Part shown: positions 1,679 to 34,285 of the stretch, one piece after another
How positions within the stretch are numbered: position 1 is the stretch's first letter
Layout of the letters: each line of letters opens with the position of its first letter
Assembly: GCA_022821965.1 (NCBI GenBank)
Contig: JAJECN010000020.1
Location: 62,001-126,000, forward strand
Length of the DNA: 64,000 bases
Direction: 5' to 3'
Origin: Candidatus Poribacteria bacterium
GTDB lineage: Bacteria > Poribacteria > WGA-4E > WGA-3G
Notes under the pieces: generated by a model
Seen by the model: only the letters and a program-made list of their open reading frames with translations
Database searches by the model: none
Told to the model about the DNA's origin: nothing
Translations under genes and position numbers: made by a program

Positions 1679-3319
1679 ATGTTCAACAGACCCCCAACAA
1701 TCGGCGAATATCTAATCAGAAAACTGGAGAGCTATGACATTGAACATATCTTCGGCATCCCCGGCGATTATGTGCTGCGGTTCTATAACCTTATTGAACA
1801 GAGTTCAATTCAGCACATCGGCATGACCCGCGAGGACGCAGCAGGCTATGCAGCGGATGCCTACGCGCGGATAAAAGGCATGGGCGCGGCTTGTGTTACC
1901 TATTGTGTCGGAGGGCTGTCGATGGTGAACGCCGTTGCAGGTGCCTACGCCGAGAAATCGCCCGTTGTTGTTATTAGCGGTGCGCCGGGCATTAGAGAAC
2001 ATGGAAAAGACGCACTGCTACACCACAAAGTCCGAGATTTCCATACACAGCAACGGATCTATGACGAGATAACCGTCGCAACGGCATTGCTTGATGAACC
2101 CTTTACTGCCTTCAATGAAATCGATCGAGTGCTTGATGCCGTGTATCGTTATAAACGTCCTGGCTACATTGAACTTCCGCGTGATATGGTCGATGTCCGC
2201 GGCACGCTCTACCAACGTCCTTCAACCGGTGGACACCTTAGCGACCCAGAGATATTGGATGCTGCCGTTGAAGAGGCTGTTGATTTCATTAATCACAGTA
2301 AAAGGCCTGTCATCCTCGCCGGTGTAGAAGTCCACAGATTCGGCTATCAAAATAAATTGCTTAGATTCGTTGAAGAAAAACGGATTCCCGTCGTTGCGAC
2401 GCTCCTCGGAAAATCGGTGATGCCGGAAGCGCACCCGCTCTACTTGGGTATTTATGAAGGGGCGATGGGCAGAAAAGAGGTTCAAGAGTTTGTTGAGGAT
2501 TCGGATTGTGTGATCATCCTCGGGGCATTCATGACGGATGTGAATCTTGGTATTTACACCGCGAACCTTGATCGCTCGCATTCTATCTATGCCACATCGG
2601 AAAAAATCTCAGTCCGCTATCATACCTATGAAGAAGTAATGTTTGATGACTTTATTGATGGCATCAATTCGCCGAAACTCCGAAGACGAAGGAAACCGAA
2701 TTTAGGATGGGCATTGCCAGATACGGAACCTTTTGAGGTCGAACCCAAGGCACCTCTAACAGTGCGTAGACTGTTCCAACATCTCAATGAATTCATCAAT
2801 GATGAATTGACGGTTATCGCTGACGTTGGTGATAGTTTATTCGGTGCTGTGGAGTTGCGAATTCATCAGCACACTAATTTTATCAGTCCTGCCTACTACA
2901 CCTCAATGGGGTTTGCAGTGCCAGCGTCCGTTGGCGCGCAGCTCAGTATGCCAAACACCCGATGTCTCGTTATCGTCGGGGATGGTGCCTTCCAAATGAC
3001 GGGCACTGAACTCTCAACAGTTGCACGTTACGGACTCAATCCGATTGTCCTTATTTTAAACAACCACGGGTATGGCACAGAACGACATCTCCTTGAGGGT
3101 TCCTTTAACGATATTGGTTCCTGGAACTATAGCTGCATGCCTACACTCTTCAGTACGGGGCGCGGATTCCATGTCCGAACCGAGGGCGAATTTGATGAAG
3201 CCATCAAAACCGCTCTTGATGAGACAGAACATTTTACCGTGATTGAAGCAGAGCTTGACAAGTTGGACACTTCACCTGCACTTGCGCGATTGGCAGAACG
3301 GATGTCTGGGGAAGTCTAA
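1679..3319 (+). CDS. Thiamine diphosphate-dependent 2-oxoacid decarboxylase (indolepyruvate/pyruvate decarboxylase type)
   Basis: The 546-residue length and layout match the PDC/IPDC family. An N-terminal PYR domain carries the cofactor-activating glutamate (E52 in MTREDAAGYAADAYAR). It is followed by a central domain and a C-terminal PP domain with the Mg-ThDP motif, beginning VGDGAFQMTG and ending LILNNHGYGTE. The HH pair typical of true pyruvate decarboxylases is not evident, though LLHHKVRDF near residue 120 is a candidate (H118-H119). Members decarboxylate pyruvate, indolepyruvate or phenylpyruvate non-oxidatively. Start chosen at ATG 1679, 8 bp after GAGGTG. It stands alone, facing the convergent isomerase gene at 3361. 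Confidence 0.8.
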   Translation: MFNRPPTIGEYLIRKLESYDIEHIFGIPGDYVLRFYNLIEQSSIQHIGMTREDAAGYAADAYARIKGMGAACVTYCVGGLSMVNAVAGAYAEKSPVVVISGAPGIREHGKDALLHHKVRDFHTQQRIYDEITVATALLDEPFTAFNEIDRVLDAVYRYKRPGYIELPRDMVDVRGTLYQRPSTGGHLSDPEILDAAVEEAVDFINHSKRPVILAGVEVHRFGYQNKLLRFVEEKRIPVVATLLGKSVMPEAHPLYLGIYEGAMGRKEVQEFVEDSDCVIILGAFMTDVNLGIYTANLDRSHSIYATSEKISVRYHTYEEVMFDDFIDGINSPKLRRRRKPNLGWALPDTEPFEVEPKAPLTVRRLFQHLNEFINDELTVIADVGDSLFGAVELRIHQHTNFISPAYYTSMGFAVPASVGAQLSMPNTRCLVIVGDGAFQMTGTELSTVARYGLNPIVLILNNHGYGTERHLLEGSFNDIGSWNYSCMPTLFSTGRGFHVRTEGEFDEAIKTALDETEHFTVIEAELDKLDTSPALARLAERMSGEV

Positions 3320-4508: not shown

Positions 4509-4569
4509 TTGTAGCATAGACTGTTAGTCTGTGCGTGTATAGGGCGCAAACTAAAAGTTTACGCTACAA
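4509..4569. repeat. 61-bp inverted-repeat element, MITE- or REP-like
   Basis: The segment is bounded by TTGTAGC (4509-4515) and its exact complement GCTACAA (4563-4569). Inside are two smaller palindromes: AGACTGTTAGTCT and AAACTAAAAGTTT. It lies in the 500-bp gap 4162-4674 between divergent genes, upstream of the promoter at 4611. Apart from this, the heptad array at 4294 and the promoter, I see nothing else in that gap. No second copy was noticed in the window. Confidence 0.45.
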
Positions 4570-4610
4570 AAGAGAAAACTAAATGACCCCGCACCACAGG
4601 TGTCCTAATC

Positions 4611-4639
4611 TTGACATTTTAATGGGTTCGTGATACGAT
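4611..4639 (+). promoter_or_regulatory. Sigma-70-type promoter for the 4675 gene
   Basis: TTGACA (4611-4616), 17-base spacer, TACGAT (4634-4639). The -10 box lies downstream of an in-frame GTG at 4630, which rules that codon out as the start and supports ATG 4675 behind GGAGG at 4659-4663. Confidence 0.65.
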
Positions 4640-4674
4640 GTTTTCATTCAGCAAGAGTGGAGGTATCGTTTCTG

Positions 4675-6096
4675 ATGAACCCGGAAGCAATTATAAACAA
4701 AATATGCAACGCTATTGATCTGATGATCGAAAGCAGTAAGCCATACAAAGGGCTGTTCCCCTCCATTGTGCATCCACAGACGGGTGAGATGCTAACGGAA
4801 AAACCGACGAAGATTCCGGGACAGCGGAATGGGGACCGGGCGCACCTCGGTTCTAACTTGATCCACGATGAGCCATTACTCTGCACGATGAACGTGCTCG
4901 CTGAAACTGAATCGAAACCGGAATACGTTGAAGTTGTGGATCGGTATTTGGCGCACTTTGCTCAGAATTGCACGAATACGACAACAGGATTGTTTCCTTG
5001 GGGTGAGCATTCATTTTGGCAGCTCATTGAGGAACGGGTCGGGTGTTCGCGAAATCCAGAGGGTGGTGCTGCAATTCACGACCATCTGCGTAAGGTCCCG
5101 CTCTGGCTCTGGCAAAAATTGAATACGTTCAGCCCCGCCTGTGTCCAAAGTTTCGCCGATGGATTGGAGTATCATTGGACCGAGGGGGACGGGCTTGAAT
5201 ACATCCGTCATGCGAATATCGACACAAAAGCACATCTCGGTCGCGGGGGTCGCGCATGCGATTTTCCGCGGCACTCAGGTTTTTACATCTTCGATTTAGC
5301 GTTCGCGTGGACGCAAGACCAGCGTCCTGAAACCCTTCAACAGATTCAGAACTATACCGATTACTGGTGGGAAAAACGGGATGACCATGGGCTTTTGCGT
5401 ATTGAGAGTCGCTCACCAAAGGAAGATGAACGTTTTTTTGACAATAACGCTCCCACACAAACGCTCTCATTAGGAATCAGTCTACTTGAATCTGCAACAT
5501 TGATAGAATCACTTCTACCCGAATTGGCAGATCGGATGCGGCAATACGGCTCGGTTTACATTGATGGGTTTCTCGCTGCCCCGCATAATCTTGAAACTCG
5601 TGAGTTTATTAGTTTATGCCAGTGCAAGACGAATCGAATTGTTGAACGTATGTCCGCATGGGGGAGCGTTTACGGTGCTGGGACTTCCTGCAGCACGGGG
5701 GTGCTCTGTCTTGCTGGTTGGCGATTGACGCAGAATGGAAAATTGATGGCGTACGCACGTGCTGTTGGCAGAACCTATCTTGATGAGGAATTTCCGGTTG
5801 ACCAAGTTCACGCGGATGGGTTCAAGATTCCTGCATCGGATGCCGGTCTTACGCTTGAGTTGTTCGCGGATCTCTATGACATTACCGGTGAATCGGTGTG
5901 GTTGGAAGGCGGCGTTGAACTGGCAGAAACGGTGCTGGACGTTTATTTTCCAGAAACGCTTCCATACGGCGCATCAGGGATTGACTGGTATGAATCACAG
6001 ATGGGAGCAGCGTTTTTGATTCACGGTTTAGCACGAGTGGCACTCTTATCACGTTCCCAAACCTGTCCGCTCGCACCTAATTACACGGCGCGATAG
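4675..6096 (+). CDS. Helical-toroid (six-hairpin glycosidase-like) protein, function unknown
   Basis: A 473-residue protein without a signal peptide. It is rich in Trp/Tyr/His and in amphipathic helices separated by short loops, as in (alpha/alpha)6-barrel glycosidases and lyases. Segments such as TGLFPWGEHSFWQ, YIRHANIDTKAHLGRGG, RHSGFYIFDLAFAW, SVYGAGTSCSTG and GIDWYESQMGAAFLIHG give that impression. I do not recognise a specific family or catalytic pair. Members of such folds hydrolyse or isomerise uronic acids and sugars. The start at ATG 4675 is set by GGAGG 11 bp upstream and by the promoter overlapping the longer frame. It forms its own transcription unit. Confidence 0.6.
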   Translation: MNPEAIINKICNAIDLMIESSKPYKGLFPSIVHPQTGEMLTEKPTKIPGQRNGDRAHLGSNLIHDEPLLCTMNVLAETESKPEYVEVVDRYLAHFAQNCTNTTTGLFPWGEHSFWQLIEERVGCSRNPEGGAAIHDHLRKVPLWLWQKLNTFSPACVQSFADGLEYHWTEGDGLEYIRHANIDTKAHLGRGGRACDFPRHSGFYIFDLAFAWTQDQRPETLQQIQNYTDYWWEKRDDHGLLRIESRSPKEDERFFDNNAPTQTLSLGISLLESATLIESLLPELADRMRQYGSVYIDGFLAAPHNLETREFISLCQCKTNRIVERMSAWGSVYGAGTSCSTGVLCLAGWRLTQNGKLMAYARAVGRTYLDEEFPVDQVHADGFKIPASDAGLTLELFADLYDITGESVWLEGGVELAETVLDVYFPETLPYGASGIDWYESQMGAAFLIHGLARVALLSRSQTCPLAPNYTAR

Positions 6097-22539: not shown

Positions 22540-23586
22540 ATGTATAAAACTGCGATGTTAGGGTGTGGCGGTCGCGCCCGAGGACACGCAGATGCGTATC
22601 GCTTCGTCAAACGCGGAAAACTCGCTGCAATCTGCGATATGAATGAAGAACGCCTCAACAGATTCGGAGACGACTTCGGTATATCTTCGCGTTACACCGA
22701 TTTGGACGAGATGCTTGAAAAAGAGAAACCCGATGTCCTCCATATCGTCACAAGCCCTGTGGTTCCGAGTCGTGAGGAACGTCTCCGTTATCCGTTGATG
22801 AAACAGGCATCGGATCACGGCGTGCCAGCGGCGATTATTGAGAAACCGGTCGCTATTGAAGGCGAGGATTGGAAACAGATTGCGGGGTTAGCCGAAGAGA
22901 CGAAAACGAAATTTGTTGTCAATACACAACTCGACTTCCACCCCAAGAATCTGGAGTTAAAAAAAGATGTCGCAGAGGGACGGATCGGCGAGATTCGGTT
23001 TATTGATGCCAGTACACGTAGTAGACCCTCTGAGCAGGGAGGGCATGTGCTACAGTTGGTGTCCTCATACATTGACAACGCGCGGCCGGTGCGAGTTCTT
23101 GGACAAATCTCTGGAAGCGAAAATTTAAATTCTGCTCCCGGTGGTCATCCGTCTCCGACGCATGCTGTCGCTCACGTTTTGCATGAAAATGGTGTCCACG
23201 TCTCTGTTGCATTTGGAACAGAGATGGCACAAAAGGCATCCGATGACCCGGGTATCTATGGACACAAACGTGTATTTGTTGCTGGGACAAAAGGATTTGT
23301 ACACTGGCGTTTCAGTAGTTGGGAACGTTCAACGCTGGAGGGTGGCTATGAGGGCGGGCCGTTGAACTATGGAGAGCAAGATGTCGTTGCGCAGGCGAAC
23401 TTCACCGAAGCCATTTTCGATTGGTTAGACGATGAGAGCAATGTCCATCCGACGCATCTTAGGCAATCGCTCGTTGAGAATAACATTATCTTAGGGATGT
23501 ACTACAGCGGGATAACAAATGAGATTATTGAACTCCCGTTTGAACCGCCCGATGGGTTAATGGACGCACTTCGAGAGAAGTTATAG
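22540..23586 (+). CDS. Gfo/Idh/MocA oxidoreductase, array paralogue 1
   Basis: 348 residues. Rossmann motif LGCGGRARGHADAYR (about 7-21), EKP motif in IEKPVAIEGEDW, then IGEIRFIDAS and the substrate-domain strand KGFVHWRFSSWER. It begins MYKTAMLGCGG and is nearly identical over long stretches to the genes at 23789, 24913 and 27386. Differences concentrate in residues about 190-235 (SGSENLNSAPGGHPSPTHAV and following). Substrate unknown; probably a sugar or cyclitol oxidised with NAD(P). Confidence 0.85.
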   Translation: MYKTAMLGCGGRARGHADAYRFVKRGKLAAICDMNEERLNRFGDDFGISSRYTDLDEMLEKEKPDVLHIVTSPVVPSREERLRYPLMKQASDHGVPAAIIEKPVAIEGEDWKQIAGLAEETKTKFVVNTQLDFHPKNLELKKDVAEGRIGEIRFIDASTRSRPSEQGGHVLQLVSSYIDNARPVRVLGQISGSENLNSAPGGHPSPTHAVAHVLHENGVHVSVAFGTEMAQKASDDPGIYGHKRVFVAGTKGFVHWRFSSWERSTLEGGYEGGPLNYGEQDVVAQANFTEAIFDWLDDESNVHPTHLRQSLVENNIILGMYYSGITNEIIELPFEPPDGLMDALREKL

Positions 23587-23788: not shown

Positions 23789-24832
23789 ATGTATAAAACA
23801 GCGTTCTTAGGGTGCGGGGGTCGTGCCCGTGCGCACGCCGATGCCTACCGCTTCGTCAAACGTGGCAAGATCGGCGCAATTTGCGATATGAACGAGGAAC
23901 TACTCAACAGCTTTGGAGACGACTTTGGGGTTTCGTCGCGCTACACCGATTTGGACGAGATGCTTGAAAAAGAGAAACCGGATGTCCTTCACATTGTCAC
24001 GGCACCGGTGTTACGCGGCACCAACCAACGTATTCGGTATTCACTGATGAAACAGGCATCGGATGCGGGTGTTCCGGCAGCGATTGTCGAAAAACCGATT
24101 GCCGTTGAAAGCGAGGACTGGAAGCAGCTTGCCGGATTAGCAGAAGAGACACAAACGAAGTTTGTCGTTAATACACAACTCAACTTCCACCCGAAAAACT
24201 TAGAACTGAAGCGGGATGTCGCAGACGGTAGAATCGGCGAAATCAAGTTTATCGATGCCAGCGCACGCAGCACGCCTGTCGATCAGGCACCGCATGTGTT
24301 ACAGCTCGTCTCTTCCTACATCGACAACTCGCGTCCGGTGCGGGTGCTCGGACAGGTCTCTGGTGCTCAGGATTTGGACTCCACTCAGCCTTCCCCTATG
24401 CATGCTGCTGCGCAAGCGCTATATGAAAATGGACTTCACGTCTCTCTCGCATTCGGGACAGGTGTAGGGCAGAAAGTACCTAAAGAACCGGATGCGGGGA
24501 ATCACACCCACAAACGCGTCTTTGTCGTCGGCACGAAAGGATTTGTGCACTGGCGGTTTAGCAGTTGGGAACGCGCCACACCAGAGGGGGGTTACGAAAG
24601 CGGTCCGCTTGACTACGGAGAGCAGGATGTCGTCGCGCAGGGTAATCTCACCGAAGCCGTTTTCGATTGGTTAGATGATGAGAACAAGCAGCATCCGACA
24701 CATCTCAAGCAGTCACTTGCGGAGTTCAACCTGCTTTTGGGAATTTACTACAGTGGTGTAACAAATGAGATTATAGACCTCCCATTTGAACCACCCGACG
24801 GGTTAATTGATATACTCCGAGAGAGGCTATAG
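23789..24832 (+). CDS. Gfo/Idh/MocA oxidoreductase, array paralogue 2
   Basis: 347 residues, same layout as paralogue 1: LGCGGRARAHADAYR, VEKPIAVESEDW, IGEIKFIDASARSTPVDQAP. The variable segment here reads SGAQDLDSTQPSPMHAAAQ, then GVGQKVPKEPDAGNH. ATG 23789 follows AAGGAGACA. Its native upstream region has been replaced or displaced by the MITE-like element. Confidence 0.85.
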   Translation: MYKTAFLGCGGRARAHADAYRFVKRGKIGAICDMNEELLNSFGDDFGVSSRYTDLDEMLEKEKPDVLHIVTAPVLRGTNQRIRYSLMKQASDAGVPAAIVEKPIAVESEDWKQLAGLAEETQTKFVVNTQLNFHPKNLELKRDVADGRIGEIKFIDASARSTPVDQAPHVLQLVSSYIDNSRPVRVLGQVSGAQDLDSTQPSPMHAAAQALYENGLHVSLAFGTGVGQKVPKEPDAGNHTHKRVFVVGTKGFVHWRFSSWERATPEGGYESGPLDYGEQDVVAQGNLTEAVFDWLDDENKQHPTHLKQSLAEFNLLLGIYYSGVTNEIIDLPFEPPDGLIDILRERL

Positions 24833-24912: not shown

Positions 24913-25950
24913 ATGTATAAAACAGCGTTCTTAGGGTGTGGCGGTCGTGCTCGCGCCCATGCAAGTGCCTACCGTTTCGTCAAACGCGGCAAAATCGGCG
25001 CGATCTGCGATATGAATGAAGAACTCCTCAACAAATTTGGAGATGACTTCGACGTTTCCTCACGCTACACCGACCTTGATGAGATGCTTGAGAAAGAAAA
25101 GCCGGATGTCCTCCACATCGTCACTGCTCCAGTGCTGCGGGGGACGAGTGAGCGTATCCGATATCCGTTGATGAAGCAAGCATCGGATGCTGGAGTTCCG
25201 GCGGCGATTGTGGAAAAACCGATTGCCGTTGAGAGCGAAGATTGGAAGCAGATTGCGGGATTGGCAGAAGAAACGGAAACGAAGTTTGTCGTTAATACAC
25301 AACTTAACTTTCACCCCCAAAACTTGGAATTAAAGCAGGATGTGGCAGAAGGACGGATCGGCGAGATTAAGTTCATTGATGCCAGCGCACGCAGCACACC
25401 AGTAGATCAAGCACCCCACGTGCTGCAGTTAGTTTCGTCCTATATTGATAACTCACGTCCAGTGCGGGTGCTGGGTCAAATCTCGGGGAGAGAACAGTTA
25501 GACTCTGCACAGCCGTCTCCCATGCATGCCGCTGGACAAGCCATATATGAGAACGGTCTCCATGTCTCTCTTGCGTTTGGGACCGGTATGGGAACATTGG
25601 CATCGGACAGTGAGAGCACTGTTGCGCATAAACGTGTTTTTGTCGTCGGAACAAAAGGTTTTGTGCATTGGCGTTTCAGCAGTTGGGAACGTGCAACACC
25701 AGAGGGTGGCTACGAAGGCGGTCCACTCAACTATGGCGAACAAGACATCGCTGCACAAGGCAATCTCACTGAGGCTGTCTTTGACTGGCTCGACGATGAA
25801 AATAACGTACACCCAACGCATCTCAAGCAATCACTTGCAGAGTTCAACCTACTTTTAGGTCTTTACTACAGCGGGATAACGAACCAAATTATTGATCTCC
25901 CATTTGAACCACCTGACGGCTTGATGGACTCGCTCCGAGAAAAGTTATAG
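24913..25950 (+). CDS. Gfo/Idh/MocA oxidoreductase, array paralogue 3
   Basis: 345 residues. LGCGGRARAHASAYR Rossmann motif, VEKPIAVESEDW, and KGFVHWRFSSWER in the C-terminal domain. The variable segment is SGREQLDSAQPSPMHAAGQ and GMGTLASDSESTVAH. It follows AAGGAGACA. TTGACA occurs at the 5' side of the spacer, but the matching -10 box is weak. Closest in sequence to paralogue 2. Confidence 0.85.
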   Translation: MYKTAFLGCGGRARAHASAYRFVKRGKIGAICDMNEELLNKFGDDFDVSSRYTDLDEMLEKEKPDVLHIVTAPVLRGTSERIRYPLMKQASDAGVPAAIVEKPIAVESEDWKQIAGLAEETETKFVVNTQLNFHPQNLELKQDVAEGRIGEIKFIDASARSTPVDQAPHVLQLVSSYIDNSRPVRVLGQISGREQLDSAQPSPMHAAGQAIYENGLHVSLAFGTGMGTLASDSESTVAHKRVFVVGTKGFVHWRFSSWERATPEGGYEGGPLNYGEQDIAAQGNLTEAVFDWLDDENNVHPTHLKQSLAEFNLLLGLYYSGITNQIIDLPFEPPDGLMDSLREKL

Positions 25951-26011: not shown

Positions 26012-26041
26012 TTGACATGCCTCCCGCACGTGTGCTATAAT
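26012..26041 (+). promoter_or_regulatory. Strong promoter for the Rpn gene
   Basis: Perfect TTGACA (26012-26017) and TATAAT (26036-26041) with an 18-base spacer, 40 bp upstream of the Rpn start codon. Confidence 0.7.
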
Positions 26042-26080: not shown

Positions 26081-26998
26081 ATGGCAAGTTTTGATGCTGC
26101 CTCTAAGAAACAGGTCGAAACAAACCCACAAGATTTCGTAGACCTCTGCTTCAAATTCGGATTGGCAAATATCACGGTGCTGGAGGTTGTAACCCCCGAA
26201 CAACCTACCGTTGAAATGCATCAAGCAGATATCCTCATTAAAGCATTGCGCGATGGTCAAGAGGTACTTGTGCATTTCGAGTTTCAAACTACCGATAGTT
26301 ACGATCCTGAGATGCCGCTCCGGATGGCAGGTTATATTATCAGAGCGATTGAGGTCTACCGGCTGCCGGTATATTCCAATGTTATCTACCTGCGTCCTAA
26401 TGCCGGTAATAACGATCCGGGAAAATTTGCGCAAAATCTGGAAGGTCATAATATTTCGATTGAATACCAAGTTTTCTGTCTAATTGAGATGGATGGACAG
26501 GAAATTTTTGATTTGAAACCTGTGGGATTGATACCGTTTACCCCGCTCATGAAGCCTCCAGCGGATATGAATGAAGAGGAGTGGCTTCGTCGTTGTGTCC
26601 AAACTGCGGACGGTATTGATGTTCCCAACAAGCCAGAATATCTTGGAAGTCTCGCTGTTTTGGGGAATTTAATCTATGATGCGCAAACGATTTTAGAGAT
26701 TATTTCGGAGGAAACCATGCAACAATCTTCTATCGCTGAATACTTAGCACCAGAAGCACATGAACAAGGAATCCAACAAGGAATCCAACAAGGAATCCAA
26801 CGAGGTGTGAGAGAGAGCACTCGTGAGAACATCCTTGAAATTCTGGCGATTCGCTTACAACCCGATGCAGCGGAAACCTTCAAACCGACGCTGGAAGCGA
26901 TTGATGATCTGCAACGTCTCAAGCAGTTACATCGCGCCGCGATACTCGCGGAAAGTCCAGAAGATTTCACGCAAGCGTTGAACGAAAAAAACAAATGA
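26081..26998 (+). CDS. Rpn-family PD-(D/E)XK nuclease with internal start
   Basis: 305 residues. The N-terminal 150 residues form the PD-(D/E)XK core of the Rpn/transposase_31 family: D50 in HQADILIK and the ExQ version of the motif in HFEFQT (E67, Q69). Residues about 228-243 are the repeated EQGIQQGIQQGIQRG, followed by a helical tail. A GGAGG (26707-26711) and an in-frame ATG (26717, Met213) lie inside the gene and could give a separate 93-residue C-terminal protein. Rpn proteins are DNA nucleases implicated in recombination and phage defence, in which a small intragenic product can inhibit the large one. ATG 26081 follows AAAGGAATGAG. Confidence 0.8.
   Translation: MASFDAASKKQVETNPQDFVDLCFKFGLANITVLEVVTPEQPTVEMHQADILIKALRDGQEVLVHFEFQTTDSYDPEMPLRMAGYIIRAIEVYRLPVYSNVIYLRPNAGNNDPGKFAQNLEGHNISIEYQVFCLIEMDGQEIFDLKPVGLIPFTPLMKPPADMNEEEWLRRCVQTADGIDVPNKPEYLGSLAVLGNLIYDAQTILEIISEETMQQSSIAEYLAPEAHEQGIQQGIQQGIQRGVRESTRENILEILAIRLQPDAAETFKPTLEAIDDLQRLKQLHRAAILAESPEDFTQALNEKNK
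26717..26998 (+). CDS. Possible intragenic RpnS-like small protein (in frame within Rpn)
   Basis: Starts at the internal ATG of the Rpn gene, 5 bp after GGAGG, and would give the 93-residue C-terminal part (MQQSSIAEYL, EQGIQQ repeats, helical tail). The same GGAGG-5 bp-start arrangement opens the separate downstream copy at 27032. That match argues the internal site is real. Known intragenic Rpn products neutralise the full-length nuclease; that role is inferred here. Confidence 0.5.
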   Translation: MQQSSIAEYLAPEAHEQGIQQGIQQGIQRGVRESTRENILEILAIRLQPDAAETFKPTLEAIDDLQRLKQLHRAAILAESPEDFTQALNEKNK

Positions 26999-27031
26999 AC
27001 CACTGCACCTTGTTGCTGATTGGAGGAAACT

Positions 27032-27301
27032 GTGCAACAACCGCCTATTGTTGAATATTTCAAGAAAAAAGCATACGAACAAGGATTTCAGCAAGGATTT
27101 CAGCAAGGTGCTCAAGAAGCCAGTCGCGAGTGTATCCTCGAGGTTCTGAAGTTTCGATTTCAGTTTGACGCAGCGCAAAACCTCAAGTTAACTTTGGATG
27201 GAATTAACGATCTACAGCGTCTCAAGCAGCTCTTTCGCACCGCATTACGGGTGGAAAGTCCCGAGGAATTCACACGCGTATTGAAGGAGAGCAGCAACTG
27301 A
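27032..27301 (+). CDS. Stand-alone duplicate of the Rpn C-terminal domain
   Basis: 89 residues from GTG 27032 with GGAGG at 27022-27026. It matches Rpn residues 213-305 throughout: QQPPIVEYF, EQGFQQGFQQG, CILEVLKF, DGINDLQRLKQLFRTALR and a closing ESPEEFTRVLKE. It has no nuclease core. It lies 33 bp after the full-length gene on the same strand. It may be a free-standing antitoxin-like partner or simply the remnant of a second, truncated Rpn gene. The intact frame and the ribosome-binding site favour expression. Confidence 0.6.
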   Translation: MQQPPIVEYFKKKAYEQGFQQGFQQGAQEASRECILEVLKFRFQFDAAQNLKLTLDGINDLQRLKQLFRTALRVESPEEFTRVLKESSN

Positions 27302-27385
27302 ACCTGTATCGTGTTCCACACGATCCCATATTTTATCACCATTGATATTCATTTTTCTTAACTTTACATTAAAGGAGACATTTCT

Positions 27386-28423
27386 GTGTATAAAACCGCA
27401 ATGTTAGGGTGTGGTGGCCGCGCCCGTGCGCACGCTGATGCCTACCGCTTCGTCAAAGGCGGTAAACTCGCTGCAATCTGCGATATGAACGAAGAATTAC
27501 TCAACAAATTCGGAGACGATTTCGACATCTCATCACGCTACACTGACTTGGACGAAATGCTTGAAAAAGAGAAACCCGATGTCCTCCATATCGTCACAGC
27601 ACCGGTGCTGCGGGGTAGCAACGAGCGCATCCGTTACCCGCTCATGAAACAAGCATCCGATGCGGGTGTTCCGGCAGCGATTGTGGAAAAACCGATTGCT
27701 GTTGAAAGCGAAGATTGGAAGCAAATTTCAGGGCTTTCCAAAGAGACGAAAACGAAATTCGTCGTCAACACACAACTCAACTTCCACCCACAAAACTTGG
27801 AATTAAAAGCAGATGTGGCGGCAGGACGTATCGGCGAAATTAAGTTCATTGATGCGAGCGCACGCAGCACACCTGTTGACCAAGGTCCGCACGTACTTCA
27901 ATTGGTATCTTCCTACATTGACAACTCGCGTCCAGTCCGTGTTCTCGGGCAAATCTCTGGCGGCGAACACTTGGATTCAGCACAACCCTCTCCGCAGTAT
28001 GCGAGTGCGCGCGTCCAATATGAGAACGGACTTCATGTCTCTGTGGCATTTGGCACAGCCATCGCGCCGACTGCGTCCGATGATCCAGTTGTTTTCTTCC
28101 ACAAACGCGTTTTTGTTGTAGGGACGACAGGGTTCGTGCATTGGCGGTTCAGCAGTTGGGAACGCTCAACCCATGAGGGCGGTTATGAAGGCGGTCCACT
28201 CAGTTACGGAGAGCAAGATGTCATCGCACAAGGCAATCTTACCGAAGCCGTTTTTGATTGGTTGGATGATGAGAGCAAGGTACATCCGACCCATCTTGAA
28301 CAATCGCTCGCAGAATTCAATCTGCTTTTGGGAATTTACTATAGCGGCATCACAAACGAAGTGATTGATCTCCCGTTTGACCCACCGGATGGACTGATGG
28401 ATAAACTGAGAGCCAAACTATAA
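27386..28423 (+). CDS. Gfo/Idh/MocA oxidoreductase, array paralogue 4
   Basis: 345 residues, starting at GTG 27386 behind AAGGAGACA. LGCGGRARAHADAYR, VEKPIAVESEDW, IGEIKFIDASARSTPVDQGP and FVHWRFSSWERS are shared with the other three. The variable segment is SGGEHLDSAQPSPQYASAR, then AIAPTASDDPVVFFH. It is separated from paralogue 3 by the Rpn unit. There is a typical NAD(P)-binding first half; the substrate is unknown. Confidence 0.85.
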   Translation: MYKTAMLGCGGRARAHADAYRFVKGGKLAAICDMNEELLNKFGDDFDISSRYTDLDEMLEKEKPDVLHIVTAPVLRGSNERIRYPLMKQASDAGVPAAIVEKPIAVESEDWKQISGLSKETKTKFVVNTQLNFHPQNLELKADVAAGRIGEIKFIDASARSTPVDQGPHVLQLVSSYIDNSRPVRVLGQISGGEHLDSAQPSPQYASARVQYENGLHVSVAFGTAIAPTASDDPVVFFHKRVFVVGTTGFVHWRFSSWERSTHEGGYEGGPLSYGEQDVIAQGNLTEAVFDWLDDESKVHPTHLEQSLAEFNLLLGIYYSGITNEVIDLPFDPPDGLMDKLRAKL

Positions 28424-32019: not shown

Positions 32020-32808
32020 ATGGATTTAGGACTCCGCGGAAAACGTGCAATTGTTACCGGCGGTAGTCGCGGCATTGGTAAACAGTGCGCGCTTGCCCTC
32101 GCACGTGAAGGTGTTCACGTCTGCATTGCTGCCCGAACTGAAGACATACTCAATCAAACCCTTGCGGAACTTGAGCAGACCGGCGGCAAAGGACATACCG
32201 TTGCGGTGGATCTAACCACACAAGCCGGTTGTAAAAAAGTGGTGCAGGAGACGATTGATCGTTTTGGTGGTGTTGACATTCTCGTCAATAATGTCGGTGC
32301 CGCTCGAAACGCTGATATTTTAGGACTGTCGCCGAAACTGATTGATGAAGCACTTTCATTGAAAACTTACAGTTATCTACGAATGTCACAACTGGTTATT
32401 CCGTATATGAGGGAAAATCAGTGGGGACGAATTGTCAATGTCGCTGGTGCAGCTGGCACGAGTCCCACCCGTGGTAACATACCGACAGGAGCTGCGAATA
32501 TCACTATTCTGAACATCACAAGAGCACTCTCTGATGCTGTCGCAGGTGATGGAATCTTGGTAAATACTGTTTGCCCGGGATTGACCAATACCGGTCGAGC
32601 ACGCACACAGCAAAGTGCAAGAGCCAAGCGCGAAGGACGTGATGTTGAGGAATTATTGCAGGAACTTGGACAAGAACTGCCTGCAGGACGTATCGCGGAG
32701 CCGGAGGAGGTGGCGAATGTCGTGACGTTCTTAGCTTCTGAAGCTTGCTCTTATATGTTTGGGAGTGCACTTTATATGGATGGTGGTAAACGTCGCGCAA
32801 CCCCGTGA
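32020..32808 (+). CDS. Short-chain dehydrogenase fold protein lacking the usual catalytic residues
   Basis: 262 residues. The nucleotide site TGGSRGIG (13-20) and NNVGAARN are intact. In the active-site stretch VNVAGAAGTSPTRGNIPTGA, the expected Ser is Ala/Gly, and alignment on the following LNITRAL puts Thr156 and Asn160 where Tyr and Lys of YxxxK should be. SDR subgroups without YxxxK exist, so the protein may bind NAD(P) with altered chemistry or act as a non-catalytic partner. GRIAEPEEVANVVTFLASE and YMDGGKRRA complete the fold. Confidence 0.75.
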   Translation: MDLGLRGKRAIVTGGSRGIGKQCALALAREGVHVCIAARTEDILNQTLAELEQTGGKGHTVAVDLTTQAGCKKVVQETIDRFGGVDILVNNVGAARNADILGLSPKLIDEALSLKTYSYLRMSQLVIPYMRENQWGRIVNVAGAAGTSPTRGNIPTGAANITILNITRALSDAVAGDGILVNTVCPGLTNTGRARTQQSARAKREGRDVEELLQELGQELPAGRIAEPEEVANVVTFLASEACSYMFGSALYMDGGKRRATP

Positions 32809-32911
32809 GCGTAACAGCATCTGTCTGAGTGAGATTTTTGCCGCTCAAACAACTGACAAATTTCCAATTAATCGTAACCAACCTCCCCACACTCTATTTA
32901 TAGGCAGTAGA

Positions 32912-34285
32912 ATGAATGTCGAGAACCGAACCATCTTTGAAGGGGACAATCTGCATGTACTTCGCGGTCTTGACACAGACACCGTAGATCTGATCTACCT
33001 CGACCCACCCTTTAATTCCAATCGAACCTTTGAAGCACCGGTGGAGAGCGAGGCAGCGGGCGCAGCTTTCAAAGATTCATGGACGTTAAGCGATTTGGAT
33101 AAAGCATCGCACGGTGAACTGGCGGAAAGAGACCCTGCGGTTTACTATACCATCAGTTCCGCTGAGTTTAGTCATGGGAAGTCCATGAAAGCCTATCTCA
33201 TTATGATGGGTATCCGAATGCTGGAGATGCATCGAATCCTGAAATCGACAGGGACTATCTATCTCCATTGTGATGATAACGCAAGCCACTATCTTAAAAT
33301 GATGATGGATGGCATTTTTGGGAAGGACAATTTTAGGAACGAGATCGTTTGGCAAAGGGCTGCAACCAGCAAGGGAAACCTTAAAAAAGGGTTGGCGCGA
33401 GATTCGGATCTCATCTTCCGGTATTCAAAAAGCAACGACTTTGTATGGAATCCTGAGGCTGTTACGATTCCTTATGATATGGCGGACTTGGATGAAAAAA
33501 CCAAACGCCAATATTATTGTGTTGAACCGGAAACTGGACGACTCGTTTCACATACCTCTATAACCGCTCAGACGCAGGATCCCGATTCTCATCTTACATA
33601 CGAGGTGATGGGAGTCGTCAGGACATGGCGGTGGGCGAAAACGCGGATGCTGAAAGAGATTGAAGCGGGACGCGTTGTACAAACAAGTCCCGGGAACGTT
33701 CCCCGATATAAACGGTATCTTGATGAGCAAAAAGGCAAAACGCTGAACAATATCTGGGTGGATATTCCTAACTTAACCGCAAGAAGTAAAGAGCGGATTG
33801 GATATCCCACACAGAAGCCGCTTGCGCTGTTAGAGCGAATTATTCATGCAAGTAGCAATCCGGGGGACATGGTACTTGATCCGTTTTGTGGGTGCGCTAC
33901 CACATGTGTTGCTGCGGAACGTCTACAGCGTCACTGGGTAGGCATTGATTTGAGTCACAAATCTTTTGAACTCGTCAAATCGCGTCTTGAACAACGCGGT
34001 GTCCTTGAACCGGTTATCCACCGAAAGGGTAACCCTGAGTTTTACCAACAGGATCGAACCTATAAGCACACATTATTCGGATGCCAAGGTGGCAGGTGCA
34101 ACGGTTGCCAGATATTATTTCCGTTTTCTAATATGACAGTTGACTATATTCTAACGAAATCCAAAGGTGGTGCCGAAACTCCCGATAATCTTCAGTTATT
34201 GTGTAGTGGATGTCAGTTAATGAAGGGGGATGGCACACAGGAACAATTAATTCAGAAGTTGAAAGACGAAGGAACTCTGAAATGA
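32912..34285 (+). CDS. Site-specific DNA methyltransferase (N4/N6 amino type) with degenerate C-terminal HNH domain
   Basis: 457 residues from ATG 32912; the frame is open further upstream but overlaps the SDR gene. The catalytic motif DPPF is at 31-34, ahead of the AdoMet motif DPFCGCAT (323-330) followed by WVGIDLS, i.e. beta-class order. It would methylate an adenine N6 or cytosine N4. Residues about 391-440 form an HNH-like zinc domain: C396xxC399, VDYILTKSKGG, Asn426 and C431xxC434. The normal DH pair is D411-Y412, so the nuclease His is lost and the domain may only bind DNA. No restriction gene is adjacent. The stop overlaps the next gene's ATG by 4 bp. Confidence 0.8.
   Translation: MNVENRTIFEGDNLHVLRGLDTDTVDLIYLDPPFNSNRTFEAPVESEAAGAAFKDSWTLSDLDKASHGELAERDPAVYYTISSAEFSHGKSMKAYLIMMGIRMLEMHRILKSTGTIYLHCDDNASHYLKMMMDGIFGKDNFRNEIVWQRAATSKGNLKKGLARDSDLIFRYSKSNDFVWNPEAVTIPYDMADLDEKTKRQYYCVEPETGRLVSHTSITAQTQDPDSHLTYEVMGVVRTWRWAKTRMLKEIEAGRVVQTSPGNVPRYKRYLDEQKGKTLNNIWVDIPNLTARSKERIGYPTQKPLALLERIIHASSNPGDMVLDPFCGCATTCVAAERLQRHWVGIDLSHKSFELVKSRLEQRGVLEPVIHRKGNPEFYQQDRTYKHTLFGCQGGRCNGCQILFPFSNMTVDYILTKSKGGAETPDNLQLLCSGCQLMKGDGTQEQLIQKLKDEGTLK

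Follow-up and report, generated by a model that had tools for sequence, protein, structure and literature searches.

The rpn locus at positions 26081-27301 of the window, the whole 64,000-nucleotide stretch of a Candidatus Poribacteria genome (G000) analysed here, is read as a genes-within-genes RpnL/RpnS unit with an extra RpnS gene, which is kept by selection and whose specificity is most likely untied from that of the adjacent RpnL. The probability of this reading, drawn from computational evidence, is put at about 60%. Zhong et al. (2023) described RpnL/RpnS of Escherichia coli as a toxin-antitoxin pair with an internal RpnS, four-residue repeats and a defence function (PMC10327210). In the sponge symbiont studied here, the first start would give a PD-(D/E)XK nuclease, RpnL, and a conserved internal ribosome-binding site would give the C-terminal antitoxin RpnS. 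The downstream gene probably arose when the 3' end of an rpn gene, with its internal start, was duplicated in tandem; it would be translated, with selection maintaining the product as an antitoxin-like protein.

Layout of the rpn locus

The features of the locus are as follows.

26012-26041, plus strand: sigma-70-like promoter TTGACA-N18-TATAAT 5' of the Rpn gene, 12/12 match
26081-26998, plus strand: Rpn gene, ORF of 305 aa for RpnL, the full-length Rpn-like nuclease
26228-26287, plus strand: candidate catalytic core D50 ... E67-x-Q69, from invariance in homologues
26707-26711, plus strand: internal Shine-Dalgarno sequence GGAGG, 5-nt spacer to ATG 26717, from synonymous-site constraint
26717-26998, plus strand: predicted intragenic RpnS, 93 aa from Met213, from the conserved internal ATG/GTG
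26762-26809, plus strand: four-residue repeats EQGI QQGI QQGI QRGV in the region of the first RpnS helix, from sequence and alignments
27022-27026, plus strand: Shine-Dalgarno sequence GGAGG of the trailing gene, 5-nt spacer to GTG 27032, from the conserved leader
27032-27301, plus strand: trailing free-standing RpnS copy, 89 aa, GTG start with an alternative in-frame TTG at 27020
27077-27112, plus strand: four-residue repeats EQGF QQGF QQGA of the trailing copy, one fewer than in RpnL, from alignment
27308-27324, plus strand: terminator-like hairpin with a T-rich tail directly 3' of the trailing gene, weak, as the region has 3 against 1.5 expected

The Rpn gene and the trailing gene look like one transcription unit, with a promoter before RpnL and a hairpin after the trailing gene; the simplest reading is that this unit would yield three proteins. 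Of the 187 family genes, 97 have a promoter match at 11 or 12 of 12 positions in the 160 nt upstream, compared to 1.3% of random windows, and the Rpn promoter is also kept in syntenic species. The locus is located between the third and fourth of four tandem Gfo/Idh-like oxidoreductase paralogues (22540-23586, 23789-24832, 24913-25950 and 27386-28423), a position conserved across species. Farther downstream, an ORF at 32759-34285 with the motif DPPFNSNR is putatively DNA methyltransferase-like. At locus L018 of G017, the gap of ∼330 nt between rpn and the downstream Gfo/Idh gene has the ends GTTATCTTAACGTGAGTT and AACTCACGTTATCTTAA, resembles a small inverted-repeat insertion and contains no trailing rpnS; a search of this gap for a decayed trailing copy found none.

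A conserved start inside RpnL

The first-pass annotation had noticed a GGAGG and an in-frame ATG within the Rpn gene that could start a C-terminal protein. The coordinates of both elements, of Met213 and of the 93-residue product are exact, and synonymous constraint supports an internal ribosome-binding site. The alignment comprises 101 distinct full-length homologues, corresponding to 39 clusters at 80% identity. The codon of Glu-210 is GAG in 101/101 homologues and 39/39 clusters, against a GAG share of 41% among the Glu codons of these genes. Codon 209 ends in G in 36 of 36 ungapped clusters (background of 25%), although the residue itself varies among Ser, Pro, Leu, Met, Lys, Ala, Gln and Thr. 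Apart from the single-codon residues Met and Trp, third positions conserved above 95% are restricted to codons 209 and 210 and the start codon. The internal GGAG is invariant in all 101 homologues, which is beyond chance, and the start is ATG or GTG in 96 of them; the other five have CTC or CTG aligned there and an ATG one codon later. In the distant relatives G063 and G064, the Shine-Dalgarno position reads AGGAGG and encodes Arg-Arg, not Glu-x, indicating that the DNA motif is kept rather than the peptide. These patterns identify a conserved internal ribosome-binding site, from which translation of a C-terminal product is predicted. Made from a site inside the toxin gene, the in-gene RpnS would always match its own toxin.

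RpnL as a divergent Rpn-like nuclease

The window gene is filed as a divergent Rpn-like nuclease, a remote assignment. RpnL has no Pfam match, PF04754 does not recognise its N-terminal domain, and its TIGR01784 score (E=5e-6, 26.5 bits) lies below the cut-off of 52.1; the same model matches 14 of 41 homologues. A comparison of the window family with canonical Rpn by hhalign gives a probability of 99.1%, carried largely by the C-terminal domain. Matches to FliH, Yae1_N and an "invertase" family are due to chance, at least partly over the Gln/Glu-Gly repeats, and were rejected. D50, H65, E67 and Q69 are invariant among 41 diverse RpnL homologues. The models draw on 41 and 28 sequences. Residues 1-137 of the PD-(D/E)XK-like model align to EndoMS/NucS with a modest Z of 8.5, and the N-terminal domain model reaches Z values of about 5-6 with other PD-(D/E)XK nucleases. 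Computationally, RpnL shows both the PD-(D/E)XK fold and the active-site residues, and it would act as a nuclease. Its N-terminal domain has a dN/dS of 0.073 between G000 and the sister species G008.

Among named genomes, the relatives come almost entirely from metagenome-assembled genomes (MAGs) of Candidatus Poribacteria, with one labelled Latescibacteria. The window genome contains nine Rpn-like genes of the same branch that keep most of the nuclease domain, the window gene included, along with C-terminal copies, either trailing or solitary, and other Rpn genes that match in the C-domain. It also contains three canonical PF04754 Rpn genes (G000:C12, C36 and C57). One of these, C12 (L013), has the same C-terminal domain as the window RpnL with 42% identity; the N-domain branch of the PF04754 genes differs from that of RpnL.

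The trailing RpnS gene

The downstream gene had been described as encoding the same segment as the RpnL tail. It is homologous and has the same GGAGG-5-start layout, but the two have diverged, with 55% amino acid identity over residues 210-304. Syntenic orthologues with a trailing copy occur in G000 and G008, and most other species lack the copy at this site. Between the two species, the trailing gene shows a dN/dS of 0.22 (bootstrap 0.11-0.41), indicating purifying selection; the value was calculated by the Nei-Gojobori method on ∼90 codons from MAGs, and gene conversion between copies can lower it. The 36-nt leader from the RpnL stop to the trailing start is identical at 35 of 36 positions. 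Decay of the copy in related strains, which the first-pass annotation had named as counterevidence, is not what this one sister species shows: purifying selection and the near-identical leader argue against a decaying fragment. A dimerising helical bundle is expected of an RpnS in genes-within-genes systems; the model of the trailing RpnS is all-helical with a pLDDT of 80. No significant match to the RpnS model was found with Foldseek, no match in a sequence search of the PDB, and no relative of the trailing protein on viral contigs.

Loss of the nuclease domain and retention of RpnS

In seven species (G004, G005, G010, G019, G024, G025 and G027), 114-209 residues, some or all of the nuclease domain, are missing at the window's syntenic site, and the breakpoints differ. 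The domain of an eighth species, G013, is interrupted early by a stop. All eight retain an intact RpnS and its Shine-Dalgarno sequence. The distance from the rpn promoter to RpnS is now 72 nt in G005 and 274 nt in G024, and a solitary copy of the window genome, L011, has a perfect promoter 54 nt upstream. A large STAND/NACHT-like ORF is located upstream of L011. The surroundings of L011 and L061 of G007 (713 and 1347) contain solitary RpnS-like genes of different subfamilies.

Syntenic pairs of solitary RpnS genes mostly show dN/dS values of 0.07-0.17. In the pair L070/L076, which has one common deletion junction, dN/dS is 0.12 and the flanks align through the junction, so that the constraint would postdate the loss of the toxin, barring gene conversion. 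Some gene conversion is plausible for this pair, since RpnS has diverged more than the flanks.

Trailing arrays in other genomes

A survey of Rpn loci for trailing C-terminal copies, proposed by the first-pass annotation as a check, reveals a recurring pattern. Among the loci fetched, there are ∼40 distinct arrays of RpnL plus trailing genes in nine genomes, with 54 trailing genes, a maximum of three copies per array and a Shine-Dalgarno sequence in 41-46 of the 54; G060-G064 were chosen for showing arrays, so that these counts give no estimate of frequency. Within the genus of the window, a trailing copy is found at only about five of ∼120 full-length genes. At the window's syntenic site, other Poribacteria have one trailing copy (L183 and L189) or three (L206). 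In a tree built on 89 columns, the trailing copies at this site fall into at least four separate groups, three of which group with their own RpnL, which points to four or more separate origins, or homogenisations, of such copies. As judged from these sequences, spare copies have arisen repeatedly and outlive deletion of the presumed toxin part.

Several further loci were observed. A second rpn gene on the same contig, L009 (G000:C17:7654-8669), is followed by a trailing RpnS-like ORF without a clear Shine-Dalgarno sequence, and its RpnL lacks the first domain residues, in frame. L185 (SB0670) carries two full-length rpn genes (2387-3280 and 4545-5438) with matching translated tails ∼2.2 kb apart, either a recent segmental duplication or an assembly effect. 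The complete chromosome G060:C1 (OY282383.1) has 81 RpnS-domain matches and ∼20 arrays of RpnL plus RpnS, several of them clustered within 60 kb, e.g., at 5264000-5326500.

The frequent and scattered duplications could be taken to mean that the 12-bp repeats merely promote tandem duplication of the rpn 3' end, leaving nonfunctional copies to drift. The absence of the copy from most species at the window's site fits this explanation, as do broken copies or copies without a Shine-Dalgarno sequence, such as L083, which has a stop, and L283, whose third copy is frameshifted. Drift is at odds with the upper bound of 0.41 for the dN/dS of the trailing gene, with its leader and with the low values of the solitary copies, and a nonfunctional by-product is improbable.

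Recombination between copies

The in-gene tail of G008 and the trailing copy of G000 have a 47-nt exact tract in common; within each of these genomes, the in-gene and trailing copies share at most 12 nt. G013 and G015, sisters of G000 and G008 in the N-domain tree (99/96), have an in-gene tail that is like the G000 in-gene copy in its 5' half and like the G008 trailing copy in its 3' half. These tracts show recombination of the trailing RpnS with the in-gene copy. This mosaic and the conversion tract would also be produced if trailing copies served as cassettes, donating C-terminal domains to RpnL and thereby altering toxin-antitoxin specificity. Recombination is, however, expected between any tandem homologues, the direction and benefit of the swaps are conjectural, and donation alone leaves the conserved translation signals unexplained. 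The cassette explanation is quite improbable.

Repeat number and specificity

In E. coli, the four-residue repeat is reported to set RpnL-RpnS specificity, and RpnCS with one added repeat no longer neutralised RpnC (PMC10327210). The trailing copy has 89 aa in both G000 and G008, compared to in-gene products of 93 and 81 aa, respectively, that is, one repeat fewer in G000 and two more in G008. The length of the repeat region differs from that of the copy's own RpnL in 40 of 48 measurable trailing copies, with differences that are multiples of four residues (zero included) in 44 of the 48 comparisons. Among trailing copies with at least 90% identity beyond the repeats, 17/21 differ from RpnL in repeat length. 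The three trailing copies of L206 hardly differ outside the repeats but contain 3, 6 and 8 QQG[IV] units, whereas the toxin gene has 10, as counted from translations. Mismatch is about as frequent between the in-gene copies of different loci (13/48 equal at ≥90% identity), and positive selection for mismatch was rejected on this basis. The trailing copies would accordingly be decoupled from their neighbour, neither matched to it nor driven apart, and a mismatch in repeats by itself argues only weakly for changed specificity.

The trailing RpnS may instead add antitoxin dose or a backup for the adjacent RpnL. The apparent single transcription unit, the common ancestry, the separate Shine-Dalgarno sequence and purifying selection are all consistent with such a role, and E. 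coli RpnES is made from the downstream gene (PMC10327210). A simple backup restraint of the neighbour is made uncertain by trailing copies that usually differ by multiples of four residues. The 55% identity, the differing repeat number in both species, the effect of a single repeat on RpnC neutralisation and the failure of trailing repeat numbers to track RpnL across arrays all make this role rather unlikely. In the preferred reading, the specificity of the trailing RpnS is most likely no longer tied to the adjacent RpnL, and the protein may act on other Rpn variants, past ones included, or by forming mixed oligomers.

Relation to known Rpn systems

E. coli RpnA-E and RpnP2 (COG5464, PF04754) resemble the window protein in having a nuclease N-terminal domain and a variable C-terminal domain with four-residue repeats. 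The Poribacteria unit further shares with E. coli RpnL/RpnS the internal Shine-Dalgarno sequence and start for a C-terminal product and a small protein homologous to the tail, but its N-terminal domain is not recognised by PF04754, and it belongs to another phylum, in which toxicity, neutralisation and phage defence would be predicted traits. A separate small partner, suggested earlier as a variant of the Rpn design, has a published precedent: downstream rpnS copies are already known from E. coli rpnE/ypaA and rpnC-rpnCS (PMC10327210). These are likewise free-standing copies directly downstream with their own Shine-Dalgarno sequences, of independent origin, and ypaA has one four-residue repeat more than the tail of RpnE. 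In contrast to the E. coli copies, as many as three copies trail RpnL in the arrays of Poribacteria, and purifying selection maintains solitary copies where the nuclease domain has been deleted. No account of trailing arrays, or of solitary RpnS under selection, was found for Poribacteria in the literature collection searched. The evidence for selection, the arrays, the repeated loss of the toxin domain and the decoupling of the repeats are new here.

Implications

The findings add a divergent Rpn branch from a phylum without cultured members to the range of genes-within-genes antitoxins, and the codon-level evidence for the hidden start is strong. A single site offers a natural series of a toxin with an inner antitoxin, a toxin with one or three extra antitoxins and an antitoxin alone, which makes the role of extra and orphan RpnS genes directly testable. 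More tentatively, and with the odds against it, the RpnS repertoire of Poribacteria, comprising trailing arrays of graded repeat number and solitary genes left after deletion, may give protection from Rpn nucleases whose specificity differs or is older, instead of acting as antitoxin to the gene beside it. Should specificity depend on repeat number as it does in E. coli, the arrays would amount to immunity repertoires and not to backups.
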